Of a stretch of 64,000 nt of DNA, positions 14,797 to 25,789 are shown piece by piece. Every line of letters starts with the position of its first letter. Positions within the stretch are counted from its first letter, which is position 1. This stretch comes from Gracilimonas mengyeensis. GTDB taxonomy: Bacteria > Bacteroidota > Rhodothermia > Balneolales > Balneolaceae. The notes below the pieces were generated by a model. It ran no database searches, had not been told where the DNA came from, and worked only from the letters and a program-made list of their open reading frames with translations. Made by a program: the position numbers and the translations under genes. The stretch lies in contig NZ_FXTP01000010.1 of NCBI RefSeq assembly GCF_900182705.1, forward strand, positions 124,001-188,000, given 5' to 3'.

Positions 14797-14813
14797 TATC
14801 ATAATGATATCAT
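14797..14813. promoter_or_regulatory. palindromic operator candidate of the FitA/VapB-PIN pair
   Basis: TATCAT-A-ATGATA (14797-14809) is a perfect inverted repeat and overlaps a second palindrome ATGATATCAT (14804-14813). It lies 21 bases before the antitoxin start. Ribbon-helix-helix antitoxins bind such sites to repress their own operon; the link here is inference. Confidence 0.45.
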
Positions 14814-14833
14814 GTAATCAATCAGGAGGAGAT

Positions 14834-15070
14834 ATGCCTGACGTTTTAGTAAGAAATATTGAAGAAAAAACCCTCAACAACCTAAAGAAAAGAGCAGAGA
14901 GAAATAACCGCTCTCTACAAGCAGAGCTTAAATCTCTGCTTGAATTATATGCCGGGCCAGAGTTAGAGGAAACCAAAAGCATGGTCAGAGACGTGTATAT
15001 GAGGTACAAGGCCACAGGTAAAAAGTTCTCGGATAGTGCTGAAGATCTTTCGAAAGACAGGGAAGGATGA
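14834..15070 (+). CDS. FitA/VapB-like ribbon-helix-helix antitoxin
   Basis: 78 residues from ATG 14834, chosen because AGGAGG (14824-14829) stands four bases before it; upstream ATGs in the frame lack such a site. MPDVLVRNIEEKTLNNLKKRAERNNRSLQAELKSLLE is a typical FitA-type ribbon-helix-helix DNA-binding and dimer domain, and the remaining tail should bind the toxin. The stop overlaps the toxin ATG by four bases (ATGA at 15067-15070). It is one of three toxin-antitoxin pairs in the phenylacetate region and the only one on the plus strand. Confidence 0.85.
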   Translation: MPDVLVRNIEEKTLNNLKKRAERNNRSLQAELKSLLELYAGPELEETKSMVRDVYMRYKATGKKFSDSAEDLSKDREG

Positions 15071-15486
15071 AAATACCTGTGATAGATGCATGCTTCGCTG
15101 TAAAATGGTTTTTACCAGAAGATGGGAGTGAAAATGCACGCCGGTTTTTTTCCGGATTGGATAACTTTGTGGTTCCGGACCTTTTCTTAATTGAGATTGA
15201 CAATATTTTATCGAAGAAAGTGAGACGAAAAGAGTTGGACATTTCTGGCGCTGAAAAAATCTTTTCCATCATTAGAAACCTTCCGTTCATTACCGTGCCT
15301 TATGAGAAACTGAGTAAAGAAGTTTTTTTTATATCTACTCGCTTTCCGGTTACCCAGTATGATGCATGTTATTTGGCGTTAGCTGTTGAATATGATGGAA
15401 GATTCTATACGGCAGATAAAAGGTTTCTGAGGGGAGTGGAAAATACAGCTTATTCAGAATTCGTAATTGGACTGGATGAACTTTGA
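15067..15486 (+). CDS. PIN-domain toxin (VapC/FitB family)
   Basis: 139 residues, full PIN length. Acidic active-site residues are in place: Asp in IPVIDACFAVKWF (near residue 6), Glu in PDLFLIEIDNIL (near 40) and the C-terminal TQYDACYLALAVEYDG and FYTADKRFL with the third and fourth Asp. PIN toxins are Mg-dependent ribonucleases that cut tRNA or rRNA. The gene is coupled to the antitoxin by ATGA. Its stop codon is the base directly before the stop of the convergent DUF4260 pseudogene (15487), at a TTGATCAA palindrome. Confidence 0.88.
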   Translation: MKIPVIDACFAVKWFLPEDGSENARRFFSGLDNFVVPDLFLIEIDNILSKKVRRKELDISGAEKIFSIIRNLPFITVPYEKLSKEVFFISTRFPVTQYDACYLALAVEYDGRFYTADKRFLRGVENTAYSEFVIGLDEL

Positions 15487-16946: not shown

Positions 16947-18029
16947 ATGATAAGAGATCTAATGTGTAAAAGGAGCATAGTATTTGAGTATTGCCAGGCT
17001 TTGAGAAGGAGCCTGGCAGTTATCCTGCTTGTGATGTTTTATGGAAATACGGTTTCGGCGCAAATCGGGGAAATGATATATGATCCTTACAATATGTGGT
17101 TGGTTGGAGATCATGGCGTTGTAATTAATGATATAGCAGATGAGCAACGGACTTTGAAACTTTTTGACTTCTCAAGTGGGAGCTTAATACAAGCTATGCG
17201 AAGTGGACGGGGCCCCGGAGAGGTGAGTCCGGTTTATTATAAGAGAAGCACTTCTTTTTCAAACGGGGATATTTTTCTCTGGGATGCAGGACGGAAACGT
17301 ATGACACGCTATTCCTCTGATCTGGAGTACAAAACGGATATTAGAGGGAATCAATCTATCACTGGAAGTATATATCAAGCCGGACTGATCAACGACAGTA
17401 CACTTTTTACGGTTGATTTTACAGAGGAGGTTTTCAAAGCCTGGAGAATTCGAAAGGGTGGTATAAAGGGAAAAACTCCACTGTGGAGCATTAACAGGAC
17501 AGAGCAAACCGAATTTGATCCTCTGGCAAATTTCACGTTGTTGCAAACCCTGTTTTACTCAAATTTTGATGGGGTGCTGTATATCGCATTCGAATTCTCT
17601 TCACAGGTCATGGCAGTGGATGAAGAAGGAATCGTCTTCATCAATAGTGAGCCGGATAATATACCATTGCCTCCCAATGATGAACAATCGGAACAAAGTG
17701 GAAGGTATAGTTTACCCGAAATGGGCAAATATCCGGAAGGAGCAAGAGACATTACAGTGGATAGTAGCTATATGTATCTATTAATGCATGGGGGAAGTAT
17801 TAGTAAATGGCAGCAGCTGAGATACGCTACGAATTTTGATGCTTTGATAGAAAAGGTTAATCACACCAAAAGATTATTAATTTATGACAGATACAGCGGA
17901 GCTTTTTTGGAAGAGAAGAAATTGCCGATACTTTCCCGGCAGGCAAAAGTCAGAGGAGATAGTATTTATTTGCTGAAAACCTTGGGAAGAAATCCAGAGA
18001 TAAGAAAAGTAAAGCTTGCCGAATTATGA
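16947..18029 (+). CDS. secreted six-bladed beta-propeller protein
   Basis: 360 residues. A long N-region is followed by a hydrophobic signal (SLAVILLVMFYGNTVSA-Q), so it is exported. The body has NHL/6-bladed-propeller style repeats with the marker GRGPGE and DIFLWDAGRKRMTRYSSDLE. It is a paralogue of the propeller at 23201-24217: both have G-x-GPGE, W-D-x-G-x-x-R and a C-terminal pattern of LLxYDxxxGxF ending at EL. Function is unknown; such proteins are common in Bacteroidota and may bind peptides or cell-surface ligands. It sits alone on the plus strand within the phenylacetate cluster, in AT-rich surroundings. A shorter start inside the N-region is possible. Confidence 0.7.
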   Translation: MIRDLMCKRSIVFEYCQALRRSLAVILLVMFYGNTVSAQIGEMIYDPYNMWLVGDHGVVINDIADEQRTLKLFDFSSGSLIQAMRSGRGPGEVSPVYYKRSTSFSNGDIFLWDAGRKRMTRYSSDLEYKTDIRGNQSITGSIYQAGLINDSTLFTVDFTEEVFKAWRIRKGGIKGKTPLWSINRTEQTEFDPLANFTLLQTLFYSNFDGVLYIAFEFSSQVMAVDEEGIVFINSEPDNIPLPPNDEQSEQSGRYSLPEMGKYPEGARDITVDSSYMYLLMHGGSISKWQQLRYATNFDALIEKVNHTKRLLIYDRYSGAFLEEKKLPILSRQAKVRGDSIYLLKTLGRNPEIRKVKLAEL

Positions 18030-19858: not shown

Positions 19859-20161
19859 TTAACTACCGAAGTTTTGAGCAGTATGTAACACATTCATTAT
19901 TTCCACTACATCATCATCGTTGTTTGGCGGCATGTAAATAATGCGCCAAGTATTATTCCAAATAATTTCTCTGAAGTTTGGATCATTAATCTCTGGTACA
20001 ATTCGGCCAGAACTTGGATGCTTAATTAATTTTTCAGTTGCCTCGAAAATTCCAAGTAAAAAATTATCAATGGTTTCTTCATCAATCCCGGCATCCAGGT
20101 AATATGACTTAATGGAACGCAGGTTCTCTTGAGCCTGTGGATTCCAAATAATGGTATGCAT
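19859..20161 (-). CDS. RelE/ParE-family toxin
   Basis: 100 residues. Typical ParE/RelE shape: IIWNPQAQENLRSIKSYYLD at the head, LIKHPSSGRIVPE in the middle and WRIIYMPPNNDDDVVEIMNVLHTAQNF at the end. Members either cut mRNA on the ribosome or poison gyrase. It starts one base inside the antitoxin stop (20161). It separates paaC from paaB inside an otherwise colinear operon. Confidence 0.88.
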   Translation of the reverse strand: MHTIIWNPQAQENLRSIKSYYLDAGIDEETIDNFLLGIFEATEKLIKHPSSGRIVPEINDPNFREIIWNNTWRIIYMPPNNDDDVVEIMNVLHTAQNFGS

Positions 20162-20343
20162 TAACTTTTATTTAAAAGCTGCTTTTTAACTTCATCCTGT
20201 GATTTTTTTTCACCGGAATGGCTCAAAGCTTTACTTACCTGATCCAGTACATAGAGCTTGTATATCGCTTGTTCTACTGTCGCATCTTCAGGCAGTTCTT
20301 CCATGGCTTTTATGATGCGTTTTTTATCAATGGTAGATTCCAT
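20161..20343 (-). CDS. antitoxin partner of RelE/ParE-like toxin
   Basis: 60 residues. IIKAMEELPEDATVEQAIYKLYVLDQVSKAL resembles the short helical antitoxins (YefM-unrelated, addiction-module component type) that precede ParE toxins in Bacteroidota and Cyanobacteria. The gene shares one base with the toxin gene. The role follows from size and order; I cannot name the family with certainty. Confidence 0.7.
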   Translation of the reverse strand: MESTIDKKRIIKAMEELPEDATVEQAIYKLYVLDQVSKALSHSGEKKSQDEVKKQLLNKS

Positions 20344-20983: not shown

Positions 20984-21928
20984 TTAAGATGCTTTCTCTT
21001 GGCGCAATTTCTTCTTCCTCGCATATTCCGCAGCCGCCTCACGCACCCATTCGCCCTCCTCATGGGCTTTCCGGCGAGCCTTCATGCGCTCACGGTTCAT
21101 GATGCCGTTGCCTTTTACCACATTCCAGAATTCATTCCAGGGAATCTCACCAAAGTCCCAATGGCCAGTTTCTTCGTTGTATTCCAGATTCGGATCGGGG
21201 AGAGTTACTCCAATAGCTTCCGCTTCCATCACCATTCGGTCTACAAAATGCTGACGGAGCTCGTCATTGGTTTTCAGTTTCACTTGCCACTTGATAAGCT
21301 CAGCGCTGTTGGGCGAGTCGGAATCGTGCGGGCCAAACATCATAAGGCTTGGCCACCACCAGCGGTTTACGGCATCCTGGGCCATTTCCTGCTGTTCGGG
21401 CGTTCCATCTGCCATTTTTGCCAGCATCTCGTATCCCTGCTTTTTGTGAAAGCTTTCTTCCTTGCAGATACGAATGTTTGCACGTGAATACGGTCCATAG
21501 GAAGAGCGGGCCAGCATGGTTTGGTTGACAATAGCGGCTCCATCCACCAGCCAGCCAATGGCGCAGATGTCGGCGTAAGTCATGGTGGGATAATTGAAAA
21601 TGCTGGAGTACTTGGCACTCCCATACAGATATTGATCTACCAATTCATCCCGGCTAATGCCCAGTGTTTCGGTGGCGCTGTAAAGATACAGGCCGTGACC
21701 GGCTTCATCCTGAACCTTGGCCAGTAATACCAATTTTCTTTTCAGAGATGGAGCTCGTTGAATCCAGTTGCCTTCAGGTAGCATGCCCACAATTTCAGAG
21801 TGTGCGTGCTGACTCATCATGCGGATGAGCTGCTGACGATACCTGTCTGGCATCCAGTCTTTGGGTTCAATTTTTTCTCCCGCTTCAATGCGGTTCTGAA
21901 ACTCGTCTAACTTTTCTTGATTTTCCAT
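20984..21928 (-). CDS. paaA: phenylacetyl-CoA epoxidase catalytic subunit PaaA
   Basis: 314 residues. Ferritin-like diiron protein; ligands lie in [30 protein letters not shown] (ExxH) and [14 protein letters not shown] (ExxH). PaaA activates oxygen and epoxidises phenylacetyl-CoA. It is the first gene of the minus-strand cluster. A perfect TAnnTTTG element lies four bases before its ATG (21933-21940), which would give a leaderless message. Upstream is not the usual regulator but the 3' end fragment of rlmN, so the original neighbour was rlmN. Confidence 0.95.
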
Positions 21929-21932
21929 GGCT

Positions 21933-21940
21933 CAAATATA
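21933..21940 (-). promoter_or_regulatory. TATATTTG -7 element before paaA
   Basis: Reading the minus strand, TATATTTG stands four bases before the paaA ATG (TATATTTGAGCCATG). It fits the Bacteroidota -7 consensus TAnnTTTG. No clear -33 TTTG is found at the right distance. The same arrangement stands before rlmN. Confidence 0.45.
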
Positions 21941-22030
21941 AGATATTTTTTGGAAGCGCTTTTCTGCTTGAACAGGAATTTACTAAGAGAAGTTCGGATA
22001 TAGAAATGCCAAGGCTTTAAGAAAAGTAAA

Positions 22031-22216
22031 TTAATTCTTCCGGTCAGCGATCGACTTCCCTTTCTCGCCGCCTTCACGGATGGCCAGCTGACCACAGCCG
22101 GCATCAATATCATCACCCCGGCTTCTGCGAACGGTGGCGTGTACATCATTTCGTATGAGTTCCCGCATAAAGTTATCGAGGCGTTCTTCACGGGCACGTT
22201 TTAGCTCAACACCGGC
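22031..22216 (-). pseudogene. duplicated 3' end of rlmN (fragment)
   Basis: These 186 bases align without gaps to rlmN codons 312 to stop (24671-24856): 16 mismatches, about 91% identity. The translated fragment keeps an open frame of 61 residues with only two changes (D to N in RLDNFM and R to H in NDVHATV), including the catalytic Cys in GDDIDAGCGQLA. Homology stops abruptly at 22217 upstream and at the stop codon downstream. Most differences are silent, so the two copies diverged while both were part of working genes. There is no start here, so it is a fragment. Confidence 0.9.
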
Positions 22217-22338
22217 ATTTTATTAGTTAGAATTAATTGTACAAAGTCATAAATAATTAGAAAAAACTTATAATTGTAACAATAATGTGTATTTGTACTC
22301 TTTAAAAATAATTGGGTGAACAAAAAATAGGGGTACTA

Positions 22339-22710
22339 ATGACTGTTGATGAAAAGAGAAAGATGCTTGCGAGAATTGAAGCTAACAAGATAAAAAAAAT
22401 ACTATCGGAAGAGATTTCCCAAATTAGGCATGTAAAAGACTGGGCAGAGTTTGCTAATTGTTCAACTACAAAATTGAATAAGACAGTTAAAATTCATTTT
22501 GGTATTTCGGCAAAAAAGATGATGAAAGAGGTGCGGTTTATTAGTATTAAAACCGTTCTAAGCAATGCCCCCTATTGTGGAAGTTATAATCTTGCACAAA
22601 TAAGTGGTCTTTCAAATGAACAAGAATTGTATAAATTTTTAAAAATAAATTTTAATACGACTTATACCGATTTAAAATATGAAATACTGATAAATAGAAT
22701 GTATATATGA
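22339..22710 (+). CDS. stand-alone AraC-type DNA-binding domain protein (divergent)
   Basis: 123 residues from ATG 22339; a TTG at 22312 is in frame but AGGGG (22329-22333) is well placed for this ATG. After a basic helix, two helix-turn-helix units follow the AraC pattern: VKDWAEFANCSTTKLNKTVKIHFGIS-AKKMMKEVRFISIKTVL and YNLAQISGLSNEQELYKFLKINFNTTYTDLKYEI (quoted in parts; key marks are the FGIS-like turn and LAQISGLSNEQELYKFLK). No ligand domain. First gene of the island and probable regulator of the peptide-propeller genes behind it. Assignment is by pattern and may be weak in a domain search. Confidence 0.6.
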   Translation: MTVDEKRKMLARIEANKIKKILSEEISQIRHVKDWAEFANCSTTKLNKTVKIHFGISAKKMMKEVRFISIKTVLSNAPYCGSYNLAQISGLSNEQELYKFLKINFNTTYTDLKYEILINRMYI

Positions 22711-22765
22711 AAATCATTTTGGATATAATCTTTTTAAAATGGATATGAAAATATATTGATTTATG

Positions 22766-22788
22766 CTTCATATCTCATAATTATGAAG
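22766..22788. promoter_or_regulatory. inverted repeat before the peptide gene
   Basis: CTTCATA (22766-22772) and TATGAAG (22782-22788) form a perfect 7-base inverted repeat with a 9-base spacer, 44 bases before the peptide ATG. It could be an operator for the AraC-like protein or part of the promoter; nothing more can be said from sequence. Confidence 0.3.
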
Positions 22789-22831
22789 TAGGTAATTTCG
22801 GTACAATAACGTTAATAAAAGGAGAATTACT

Positions 22832-23116
22832 ATGAATAATCGAATAAATAAGTTGCTAAAGATAATGTTCATTTTGACAGTAGCATTTTTTTCTTTCCAA
22901 ACTACATCATCAGAAGTAAATGCAGAATCAGCAATACAGCAACAATCAAGTTGTACAATTAAGATGGGTTCTTTCAAATTTTTAGGATGCTGGGGAAACA
23001 CTGATCAGTTTTGTAAATCAAAAGGTGATTGTGATGATGATTTAAGAGCTATTAAAAATGAGATAAGAATCAGGTTTAACTTATGGCATTGCATAGCCGA
23101 TATTTTTCTTGAATAG
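22832..23116 (+). CDS. secreted Cys-rich small protein
   Basis: 94 residues; ATG 22832 follows AAAAGGAGA (22816-22824). A signal peptide of about 31 residues (LLKIMFILTVAFFSF then SSEVNA-ES) leaves a mature chain of about 63 residues with five Cys (41, 53, 61, 67, 87) and two Trp (54, 85). The EVNA-ES junction recalls the NVEALA-type peptides of Bacteroidota that also lie next to six-bladed propeller proteins, but the match is loose. Disulfide bonding is likely in the periplasm. It lies between the AraC-like gene and the propeller gene. Function unknown. Confidence 0.6.
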   Translation: MNNRINKLLKIMFILTVAFFSFQTTSSEVNAESAIQQQSSCTIKMGSFKFLGCWGNTDQFCKSKGDCDDDLRAIKNEIRIRFNLWHCIADIFLE

Positions 23117-23200
23117 TGTGAATATCACTTCAATTATCAAATTTGAGATGAGTTTTTGGTTATGTAATGCCTTTCTATAATTATGTAAAATATTTAAGAT

Positions 23201-24217
23201 ATGATCAGATATTTAGCGATAGTCTTAGTTCTTTTGATTTGTGAAAATGTAAATGCACAGGAAAACTTTATCTATGACAAAGTTTATAATCCAGAAAATA
23301 TTTATGTGGTAGACGATTCATTAGTATTGATAGCTGATCTATCTAGAGTGGATGAAGAACTTTGCCTTGTCAACATATACACTGAGCACAATATTGGATG
23401 TACTAGAATTGGGTATGGACCGGGAGAGTTTAGTGGGAATGTTACGAGTATATTAATCGATCAATTAACAAGGGAAATAATTATTTGGGATGGCGGAAAC
23501 CAACGAATCAGCACATTTTCATCCAGTATGGAATTACTCAAAGAAAGTCCCCCCGCAGGAGGTTTTAGTGGTGGGTTATTTGCATTTCCTTTAAAGAATG
23601 GGAAACAATTGGTTTTAAGAATGAATAGGGATTCATTTGCTGAAATTGTGGATGAGAATAGTAATTCTATTGAGTTTATTATTGAAAATGAAAGTGAATT
23701 GTTACATCCAATAAGGGATAATTTTCTTCTAAAACAAGGAGAGTTCGCTACAGAGAGCGCAAAAAATTCAATTGTCTATGTATCAAAATATTCATCCACA
23801 GTTATAAAAATATCTGAAGATGGGGTAGATTTTATTACATTGGGCAAACCAAACATTCCATTTCCTGAAAGAGAGCAAGAGGATGGTCTTAGTATTCCTT
23901 CAGCCCACAAGTATATTACGTCATCTTTGGATGTATCAATTGCAGAAAGAAACGTTTATGTTCTTCATTCAGGAAAAAAAACCAGTTATAATGAAGGATT
24001 TTGGTATTTGATTAGAGGCAGGATATTAGAGCTTCAGGACAAATTAGAGAAGGGAAAGGTACTCTTGGTTTACAACCTAAACGATGGGAGTTTCGAAAGA
24101 AGTATCGAGCTTCCATTTGAAGCAAAAAAGGCTAAAGTATACAATAATAAAGTATATGCTTTACACGAGACAAAGGGAGGACCTGTAATAACTGTATTAT
24201 CTCTTGAGGAGTTATGA
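23201..24217 (+). CDS. secreted six-bladed beta-propeller protein (island)
   Basis: 338 residues. Signal peptide YLAIVLVLLICENVNA-QE. Propeller blades include YNPENIYVVDDSLVLIADL, GYGPGEFSG, IIIWDGGNQRISTFSSSME and a last blade VYNNKVYALHETKGG. Related to the propeller at 16947-18029 by shared GPGE and WDxGxxR marks and matching C-terminal layout. Its stop overlaps the start of the MauE-like gene by four bases (ATGA at 24214-24217), so the two are translationally coupled. Likely exported partner of the Cys-rich peptide; ligand unknown. Confidence 0.7.
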   Translation: MIRYLAIVLVLLICENVNAQENFIYDKVYNPENIYVVDDSLVLIADLSRVDEELCLVNIYTEHNIGCTRIGYGPGEFSGNVTSILIDQLTREIIIWDGGNQRISTFSSSMELLKESPPAGGFSGGLFAFPLKNGKQLVLRMNRDSFAEIVDENSNSIEFIIENESELLHPIRDNFLLKQGEFATESAKNSIVYVSKYSSTVIKISEDGVDFITLGKPNIPFPEREQEDGLSIPSAHKYITSSLDVSIAERNVYVLHSGKKTSYNEGFWYLIRGRILELQDKLEKGKVLLVYNLNDGSFERSIELPFEAKKAKVYNNKVYALHETKGGPVITVLSLEEL

Positions 24218-24645
24218 AAGTATATTATTCAAAATGGTTTGTGTGGATCATCTCTGGGTTTTTACTTTTTTCAGCTATCAGAAAATTGGTATATATCTTT
24301 TCAGAGGTATATATAGATATTCCTCTCATATCTTACCTTACAGATCATCCCTATGTTGCTATTTGGGTGCTTTTTGTTATTTCAGTGGTGGAATTAACTG
24401 CAGTGTTCATATTGTTATTTGGAAATAATCATATACAAGATTTTATACTTATGATATTGGTTAACTTTGTGATTATTGGAATAATATTTAGTGTTGTTGA
24501 ACTGATTTATTTTGGGGAATCTTGTTTTTGTGGTATTTCAAAAACACCAGTTATTTCTATCTCAGTTAAAGTTGGATTACTACTATTATTGTTAGCTTAC
24601 CGTAGAACAGGAAGAAAAACTTTAGTTTTGAAAGAAATAAGATGA
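24214..24645 (+). CDS. MauE/DoxX-like membrane protein
   Basis: 143 residues with four hydrophobic helices (about 8-28, 46-70, 77-98, 112-130), the size and topology of MauE/DoxX proteins. A Cys-x-Cys pair (C104, C106 in GESCFCGIS) lies on the loop between helices 3 and 4, where such redox-linked members carry it. MauE helps form disulfides in the small subunit of methylamine dehydrogenase; here it is coupled to a propeller gene and follows a Cys-rich exported peptide, so a similar oxidising role is inferred. It ends 25 bases before the stop of convergent rlmN. Confidence 0.65.
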   Translation: MKVYYSKWFVWIISGFLLFSAIRKLVYIFSEVYIDIPLISYLTDHPYVAIWVLFVISVVELTAVFILLFGNNHIQDFILMILVNFVIIGIIFSVVELIYFGESCFCGISKTPVISISVKVGLLLLLLAYRRTGRKTLVLKEIR

Positions 24646-24670
24646 GTCTTACAAATCAAATGGATAATAC

Positions 24671-25789
24671 CTAATTCTTCCGGTCCGCAATTGATTTCCC
24701 TTTCTCGCCGCCTTCGCGGATGGCCAGTTGACCACAGCCGGCATCGATGTCATCACCCCGGCTTCTGCGAACGGTGGCGCGTACATCATTCCGTATGAGT
24801 TCCCGCATAAAATCATCAAGGCGTTCTTCACGGGCACGTTTTAGCTCCACACCAGCCACGTTGTTATACATGATGATATTCACTTTGCTGGGCACCCATT
24901 TTACAATTTTAGCCAGATCGCGGGCGTCCTGTTTGCTGTCATTAAAGTTATCAAACAGCAAATATTCGTAGGTAATGGGACGCTCGGTAGCTTTGTAATA
25001 ATATTTTACGGCTTCTTCCAGGCTTTCCAGGTTCATAGAGGCGTTGATGGGCATAATCTTGTCACGCTTCTCATCGGTGGGGGCGTGCAAAGAAATAGCC
25101 AGATTGAATTCCTCCTGGTCGTCAGCCAGCTGTTTAATTTGCTTGGTGAGACCAACCGTTGATACCGTGACTCTTTTTGGAGAAAGATCGATACTTAACG
25201 GATCTGTGATGATGTGCGCGGAATTTACAATCGCTTTGTAATTATGCAGGGGCTCGCCCATCCCCATATACACAATGTTGGTGATTTTCTTCCCATACTT
25301 CTCTTCAGCCAAATCATTGATGTACTGAACCTGATCTACAATTTCACCATGGGTGAGATTACGAAAAAGCCCCATTTTACCGGTGGCACAAAAGCTACAT
25401 CCAAACACACATCCTACCTGTGAAGAGACACAAACCGTCAAGCGGCGCGCCACTCCATCTGCAAAAAAATCAGGGATGAGTACGGCTTCTACCTTATAAT
25501 CCTTCTCAGGATCATTAAGTTTAAACAAAAACTTGATGGTGCCATCTTTTGACTCTTGCTGCTGAACCGGCTTAATGCGGTTGATGGTGGCAATATCGTG
25601 AAGTTTCTCCCTTAAATCTTTCGAGAGATTAGTCATTTCATCAAAATTAGAAACGCCTTTTTGATAGAGCCATTGAAAAATTTGATCGGCCCGGAAACTC
25701 TGCAACCCCAGCTCTTCACAAAAATGGGTGAGTTCTTTCTTACTGAGGGCTTTTAGGTCGGTTTTGGTAGAAGTCGTTGTAGTTTGCAT
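24671..25789 (-). CDS. rlmN: 23S rRNA A2503 / tRNA A37 C2-methyltransferase RlmN
   Basis: 372 residues, complete. Radical-SAM cluster Cys 127, 131 and 134 in CVFGCSFC; the methyl-carrying Cys 352 in RGDDIDAGCGQLA; GMGEPLHNYKA and SLHAPTDEKRDKIMP are family marks. It methylates A2503 in the peptidyl-transferase centre and A37 of some tRNAs. Its last 186 bases occur again at 22031-22216, so this gene was the site where the neighbouring island entered. A TATCTTTG element lies four bases before the ATG. Position 25790-26025 upstream holds only repeat words such as CGCCAAGAGCGCAAAG. Confidence 0.97.
   Translation of the reverse strand: MQTTTTSTKTDLKALSKKELTHFCEELGLQSFRADQIFQWLYQKGVSNFDEMTNLSKDLREKLHDIATINRIKPVQQQESKDGTIKFLFKLNDPEKDYKVEAVLIPDFFADGVARRLTVCVSSQVGCVFGCSFCATGKMGLFRNLTHGEIVDQVQYINDLAEEKYGKKITNIVYMGMGEPLHNYKAIVNSAHIITDPLSIDLSPKRVTVSTVGLTKQIKQLADDQEEFNLAISLHAPTDEKRDKIMPINASMNLESLEEAVKYYYKATERPITYEYLLFDNFNDSKQDARDLAKIVKWVPSKVNIIMYNNVAGVELKRAREERLDDFMRELIRNDVRATVRRSRGDDIDAGCGQLAIREGGEKGKSIADRKN

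Follow-up and report, generated by a model that had tools for sequence, protein, structure and literature searches.

A peptide-propeller cassette of Gracilimonas mengyeensis probably imported together with a donor rlmN end

Insertion with a long target duplication was reportedly described for the restriction-modification genes of Helicobacter pylori by Nobusato et al. in 2000. Two articles report this kind of insertion for the same genes (PMC1643837, PMC4978471). Homology-facilitated illegitimate recombination is treated in another article (PMC3240628), and a further one proposes it for the type VI secretion system (T6SS) effector-immunity arrays of Vibrio cholerae (PMC5361080). In the species covered by PMC2884548, small variable segments flanked by direct repeats make up 10-18% of such segments. 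Here, I analyzed a stretch of 64,000 nucleotides (the window; contig NZ_FXTP01000010.1, positions 124,001 to 188,000) of Gracilimonas mengyeensis (GCF_900182705.1), a marine member of the Balneolaceae family in the Balneolales order. In the window, a four-gene cassette for a small cysteine (Cys) peptide and a beta-propeller protein lies between paaA and rlmN, and it is bracketed by two copies of the rlmN 3′ end. The locus adds a new case, with an unusual cargo, to a known pattern. With a probability of roughly 0.68, the cassette, lacking a recombinase of its own, was imported together with the rlmN end of a donor by recombination anchored in rlmN.

The locus resembles the insertions with long target duplication in that accessory genes lie between long direct repeats of neighbouring sequence and that a related genome has a single repeat and no insert (here the pair of genomes G001 and G007, described below). 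It differs in its cargo, a peptide-propeller cassette instead of restriction-modification genes. Moreover, at rlmN and at a gene for an RND pump in genome G025, the repeats look derived from diverged genomes. The likeness to homology-facilitated illegitimate recombination consists of one homologous anchor combined with one illegitimate end, and of a displaced old gene part that remains. In the V. cholerae arrays, the remaining parts are orphan immunity genes, whereas in the window it is the dead end of an unrelated housekeeping gene, and the illegitimate joint is one that I infer.

The genome carrying the window (G000; 4.67 Mb in 33 contigs, 97.5% complete, with the window on contig C10) was searched with the rlmN fragment, and two places match, with no third rlmN-like place (Table 1). 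The two copies align without gaps in the same orientation, and 170 of the 186 positions are identical (E = 2.65e-71). The partial copy runs from codon 312 to the stop codon, which is TAA in the fragment and TAG in the intact gene. Mismatches are scattered along the full 186 bp, and 14 of the 16 fall on third codon positions. Only 2 of 61 residues differ, D in the intact gene being N in the fragment and R being H. The N is a common state in the genus, while the H, which replaces an R conserved in nine relatives, may be a later decay. The 2.4 kb between the copies, whose genes are opposite in orientation to rlmN, has a GC content of 27-34% in 500-base windows, as compared with 36-53% in the surroundings. 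The first-pass annotation, made from the window alone, had described the repeat with its mismatches, its ends at the stop codon and at codon 312, its two differing residues, and the AT-rich, oppositely oriented segment; the alignment, the GC content, and the gene strands confirmed all of these.

Table 1. Features of the rlmN-paaA region in the window
Feature	Position	Strand	Remarks
paaA, beyond the partial rlmN copy	20984..21928	-	TIGR02156
paaA-proximal upstream block	21929..22007	-	common to five genus relatives; 23 bp from the partial rlmN stop codon
Partial rlmN copy (3′ end, codon 312 through stop)	22031..22216	-	orphan adjoining paaA; read as the recipient's old end
Cassette left end, upstream region of the regulator	22217..22338	.	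abuts the broken end of the partial rlmN
Short AraC-type regulator, HTH_18-like, 123 aa	22339..22710	+	PF12833, E=4.5e-5, 24.1 bits, cut-off 33.6
Small secreted-looking Cys peptide, 94 aa	22832..23116	+	FLGCWG...C motif; signal-like start by eye
6-bladed beta-propeller protein, 338 aa	23201..24217	+	PF17170, E=3.5e-4, below cut-off; signal-like start by eye
MauE-like membrane protein, 143 aa	24214..24645	+	PF07291, E=0.0011, 19.6 bits, below cut-off of 27
3′ end within intact rlmN	24671..24856	-	matches the fragment; read as donor-derived
Intact rlmN, 372 aa	24671..25789	-	TIGR00048, 395 bits, cut-off 290

Is the fragment a decaying duplicate of the neighbouring gene? In a freely decaying copy, 55-61% of the changes are expected to be nonsynonymous. 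In rlmN, 13 of the 15 differing codons are synonymous (the TAA/TAG pair being counted), and the probability of finding at most 2 nonsynonymous codons of 15 if one copy was free is 0.0002 to 0.001, depending on the transition bias. This agrees with the proposal that the copies diverged silently in separate working genes. Self-duplication followed by decay of one copy was rejected by the codon pattern for rlmN and also for the RND gene of G025. Both rlmN copies carry a C-terminal tail that is absent from the 9 genus relatives, so the donor and the recipient were probably close. There was no evidence that the whole rlmN operon is foreign; its fast-evolving genes diverge from the genus about as the members do among themselves (identity to the genus versus within the genus, 47%/53%, 42%/52%, and 38%/46%).

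An import anchored in rlmN would have proceeded as follows. The DNA of a related strain would have had the cassette directly behind the donor rlmN. Homology within rlmN would have anchored the right end, and the working gene would now carry the donor 3′ end. The left end would have been joined illegitimately at codon 312 of the resident rlmN, leaving the last 186 bp of the resident gene as a dead fragment beside paaA. The simplest single history is such an import with an illegitimate left end, which would result in an intact working gene, an identity that stops at the gene border, and silent differences between the copies. A ComEC-type Competence domain was found in 10/10 genomes of the genus and also in 10/14 control genomes, a distribution that hints weakly at natural transformation.

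Is the same scar found at other genes? The flanks were compared with each other at 15 cassette-like loci; a wider test covered 24 loci, three of which had short flanks, and 20 loci were scanned for repeats. Gene-end repeats surround the cassette in the window (186 bp), in G001 (111 bp, 95.5% identity), and in G025 (192 bp, 94.3%), and neither the wider test nor the scan revealed an additional gene-end pair around a cassette. In summary, the 24 loci comprise 3 with a gene-end repeat, one with non-coding repeats, one with a 35-base match, and 19 with nothing of the kind. Matches of 24-25 bases in G035 and G091 and of 35 bases in G123 were not counted. I also discounted the repeats of G017:C1 and of the paaA locus of G043, which are non-coding or multi-copy, and those of G047, which touch a contig end. 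When only the exact four-gene order is considered, the scar is present at 3/4 loci. At all three scarred loci, the partial copy is found at the regulator end of the cassette and the intact gene at the MauE end. The G001 repeat is the 3′ end, through the stop codon, of a gene for a 684-aa helix-hairpin-helix protein, while in G025 an AcrB-type RND gene is repeated at its 5′ end, beginning approximately at the start codon. Thus, the targets are three unrelated genes, represented by two 3′ ends and one 5′ end, with no common target site; no common core of the three repeats was evident by eye.

Two of the three junctions, those of rlmN and G001, lie exactly at the stop codon. This would fit an integrase that acted in trans and put the cassette at a gene end, like the genomic islands at the 3′ ends of tRNA and other genes. 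Such an event is hardly credible, since the repeats differ in length (111, 186, and 192 bp), their copies are only 92-95% alike, the targets are unrelated, and one of them is a 5′ end; no recombinase was recognised. An integrase or att-type island was also rejected, because the Pfam matches of the four cassette proteins include no recombinase family and the targets are unrelated. The earlier remark that the island has no integrase agrees with this result.

G007, which is about 95% identical to G001 in this region, has the gene end once, followed immediately by the flank that lies behind the partial copy of G001. G007 is thus the empty site of the G001 insertion, with the join exactly at the stop codon. 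In the case of rlmN, the relatives have a single rlmN end but a different flank. The appearance of a precisely empty site in G007 may also suit a circle consisting of the cassette and a donor rlmN end, which would have been formed by direct-repeat recombination in another strain and integrated into the resident rlmN by a single RecA-type crossover. The repeats would act as homologous attachment sites, and the element could leave precisely. A circle predicts the same layout of partial copy, cassette, and intact gene as well as the silent divergence, but it leaves the first arrival of the cassette at three unrelated genes unexplained. Furthermore, the mismatches extend across the whole 186 bp, so the crossover point is not placeable. 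I consider the circle unlikely. A more general idea is that in Balneolales the cassette moves without a recombinase, as a mobile unit that travels with the functional end of its host gene. The gene end would be the sole homology arm into the same gene of other strains, the gene would be restored on entry, and the unit would exit by recombination between both gene ends. This idea is tentative and rather unlikely to be true.

The G025 copies resemble the rlmN copies in their codon pattern. In the RND gene, 7 of 8 codon differences are synonymous, and the partial copy has one nonsense change (P = 0.006 to 0.016 for this pattern if one copy was free). The partial and intact copies each have their own diverged upstream region, as would be expected for two working genes from different genomes. 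The DNA just inside the partial copy matches the upstream region of the G020 RND gene (71.6% over 334 positions), as if the imported block ended at the edge of the partial copy. The synonymous excess at rlmN and at the RND gene indirectly suggests that the repeat copies came from a donor and a recipient; this does not apply to G001. Together with the uniqueness of the rlmN fragment among the relatives (see below), the silent divergence and the occurrence of the same scar at two other genes support the insertion with a foreign rlmN end that had been proposed.

How common are repeated gene ends in general? In 1,009,997 bases of G000, 18 direct-repeat rows passed a filter, and the rlmN pair was the only two-copy combination of an intact gene end and an orphan; the remaining rows were multi-copy, non-coding, within one gene, or tandem paralogs. 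In 82 fetched loci (1,356,750 bases), which had partly been chosen for these cassettes, 27 repeat rows passed. Of the 15 pairs inspected, six were gene-end pairs: three belong to the cassettes, one is a further pair in the G025 array, and the others involve a G017 thioesterase gene and a G010 homogentisate dioxygenase gene. The G025 array is a series of propeller genes before the RND pump gene (L237:3269-9791), in which there are two gene-end duplications, as if from successive insertions. In G010, the 3′ end of the homogentisate dioxygenase gene is duplicated as a 267 bp repeat around 537 bp with no peptide cassette (L206:11069-12139). All 22 differing codons of this pair are synonymous, and the gene end is single in the fetched stretches of four relatives. 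In the G010 pair, recombination with a diverged donor seems to have left an especially clean trace. In view of such background pairs, the process that duplicates gene ends is not limited to the cassette, but it is rare. Judged informally from these rates, chance is unlikely to account for the scar at two of the three further loci that share the gene order. Scanning for gene-end scars whose differences are mostly synonymous is easy, and this signature would separate donor imports from self-duplications in each genome. Through its silent changes, the rlmN locus illustrates concretely how small sets of accessory genes can spread without integrases or transposases, and it ties this process to a single recurrent cassette that encodes a secreted-looking peptide.

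The neighbourhoods of rlmN and paaA were then compared among the relatives. RlmN matches were found in 83 of 92 family genomes, and an extra rlmN piece is present in only one of the 83, G000; the two RlmN matches of G079 are adjoining parts of one open frame. In 9/9 genus relatives, the rlmN 3′ end faces a convergent gene of 302 aa, from which three unrelated open reading frames (ORFs) separate it in G003; this gene encodes a signal peptidase in the one relative scanned. In G000, this 302-aa gene is on a different contig, beside genes that lie upstream of rlmN in G002 and G007. Accordingly, rlmN of G000 has left the site that it occupies in the genus relatives. In nine other genomes, rlmN and paaA are on one contig, at distances from about 43 kb (G002 and G004), 55-56 kb (G009 and G017), and 91 kb (G012) to more than 200 kb (G018, G028, G030, and G037), with a maximum of more than 1 Mb. 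It had been supposed that rlmN and paaA were neighbours before the insertion, and that relatives would have rlmN directly followed by paaA without the island. The comparison gave zero examples; the adjacency was found only in G000, and the supposition was not upheld. The idea of rlmN as a recombination hot spot was likewise not supported, as the cassette occurs at different genes and the upstream side of paaA is the more variable place. On the whole, the interpretation of the first-pass annotation is partly supported; its core holds, and what recurs is the cassette rather than the rlmN site.

Of the 64 family genomes that have paaA, 51, including that of the window, supplied the paaA loci. At 24 of the 50 other loci (7/9 in the genus), an hppD-like dioxygenase gene (by a Pfam match in G004) is divergently upstream of paaA, directly or behind additional ORFs. 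The 79 bp upstream of paaA in the window are part of a block shared with G004, G005, G006, G008, and G009. Beyond this block, the gene content varies, with the exception of a homolog of the cassette regulator in both G005 and G008. Short AraC-type regulators divergent from paaA were found in G005, G008, G034, and G062 (L124, L129, L183, and L184), which belong to three GTDB genera; they are 32-45% identical to the window protein, those of G005 and G008 being 41-42% identical. The paaA neighbourhood seems to attract such regulator genes. The upstream side of paaA also hosts transposases, an IS1595-type one in G008 and an IS200-type one in G004.

Several results weigh against an import with a donor rlmN end. 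No relative examined has rlmN next to paaA, among the propeller matches in 14/92 family genomes none outside G000 is within 40 kb of rlmN, and the donor was not found. At the paaA loci with a similar regulator as the nearest upstream ORF (4/50), there is no rlmN fragment, and the import history leaves the regulator next to paaA in four genomes as a coincidence. These four loci raise the possibility that the regulator, and maybe the whole cassette, was already upstream of paaA and that the rlmN pieces came later. The departure of rlmN from its site in the genus relatives would also agree with this order of events. However, it requires two rlmN-derived insertions around the cassette, and the G001 and G025 cassettes have the same layout at other genes, which makes it highly improbable. 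The upstream region of the window regulator shares short stretches with that of G001, whose cassette is not at paaA; at the cassette left end, 11 identical bases are shared with the upstream region of the G001 regulator (E = 0.005).

Other points against the import concern the cassettes elsewhere. The gene-end repeat is absent from 21 of the 24 cassette-like loci, and G042 has no repeat around its cassette in spite of the same gene order. In G001, the partial copy has decayed freely (3 nonsynonymous changes and 1 deletion). The partial and intact copies of G001 share three silent states versus G007, so the duplication arose within the lineage. It appears that the G001 donor was of the same species or that the target was duplicated at the insertion, and self-duplication with decay stays compatible with the codon pattern of G001. 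Could the insertion in the window also have duplicated the resident rlmN end itself, as in a classical long target duplication, with decay of the partial copy afterwards? G001 fits this explanation, given the free decay of its partial copy and the grouping of this copy with the intact one. In contrast, the synonymous excess of the rlmN and RND copies, with the low P values given above, and the entirely synonymous homogentisate dioxygenase pair oppose it. I regard a target duplication at rlmN as quite improbable and prefer the import with a donor rlmN end.

What does the cassette encode? The window propeller protein scores 20.3 bits with DUF5128, below the cut-off of 22.9. Among 11 aligned members of the propeller family, 5 match TolB_like; the G001 homolog scores 32.2 bits with this family (cut-off 29.2), and the propeller profile matches four TRIM2/TRIM3 sequences in PDB (best E 2e-4). 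No Pfam or NCBIfam match was found for the Cys peptide. It was aligned with the peptides of G001, G025, G062, and G093; the five peptides of this type have the start Met, two Gly, and three Cys in common. One Cys is common to 6/6 aligned members of the MauE-like protein. The reading as an anti-phage defence system was rejected, as none of the four cassette proteins matches a PADLOC defence model (E up to 0.01). Other small peptides that look secreted or that I take to be double-glycine-like are also preceded by similar regulators, and the cassette is read as a regulated peptide system for this reason. The cargo would be a peptide with Cys residues that is regulated and exported; the propeller would be a binding or accessory protein, and the MauE-like protein would act in thiol redox. 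The peptide is possibly bacteriocin-like or a signal.

NVEALA peptide clusters are known in Bacteroidota. The cassette resembles the Bacteroidota peptide-propeller clusters (Pfam DUF5128, TolB_like, MauE, and HTH_18), which have a Cys peptide beside a 6-bladed propeller and a MauE-like protein. It differs in that the window members score below the Pfam cut-offs and that a short AraC-type regulator leads the cassette. Literature searches gave no description of this order of regulator, peptide, propeller, and MauE genes; nothing usable turned up on NVEALA or on propellers combined with MauE, and no paper with the word NVEALA was found.

The propeller search gave matches in 14/92 family genomes, and an order-wide profile search gave matches in 16/128 genomes at E up to 1e-15. 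The same four-gene order is present in three other family genomes, at G001:C35, at G025:C33, and with weaker similarity at G042:C12, at sites unrelated to rlmN. Variants of the cassette also occur. G035 has the MauE-like gene before the peptide gene, G004 has no regulator, and an extra gene encodes an ABC transporter at G091:C50 or a signal peptidase at G000:C10:90361. Further clusters with a regulator, a small Cys peptide, and a propeller were found at L229 (G000:C10:90361), L242 (G000:C8), L234 (G091:C50), and L308 (G045:C9).

A few other features were found in the paa region of the window. In antisense orientation, a second propeller gene (16947-18029, +) is located between paaD and the gene for an enoyl-CoA hydratase. 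At the same spot, G004 has genes for a MauE-like protein, a Cys peptide, and a propeller; thus, the window may have lost two of the three genes. A ParE toxin gene (PF05016, E=7e-14; 19859-20343, -) lies within the paa operon between paaB and the paaC-type gene, which adjoin each other in the genus relatives, and the small ORF upstream of it probably encodes the antitoxin. A pair of a FitA-type antitoxin and a PIN toxin (VapBC-like; 14804-15486, +) is also found in the paa gene region, and the FitA-type antitoxin is present in four genus relatives.

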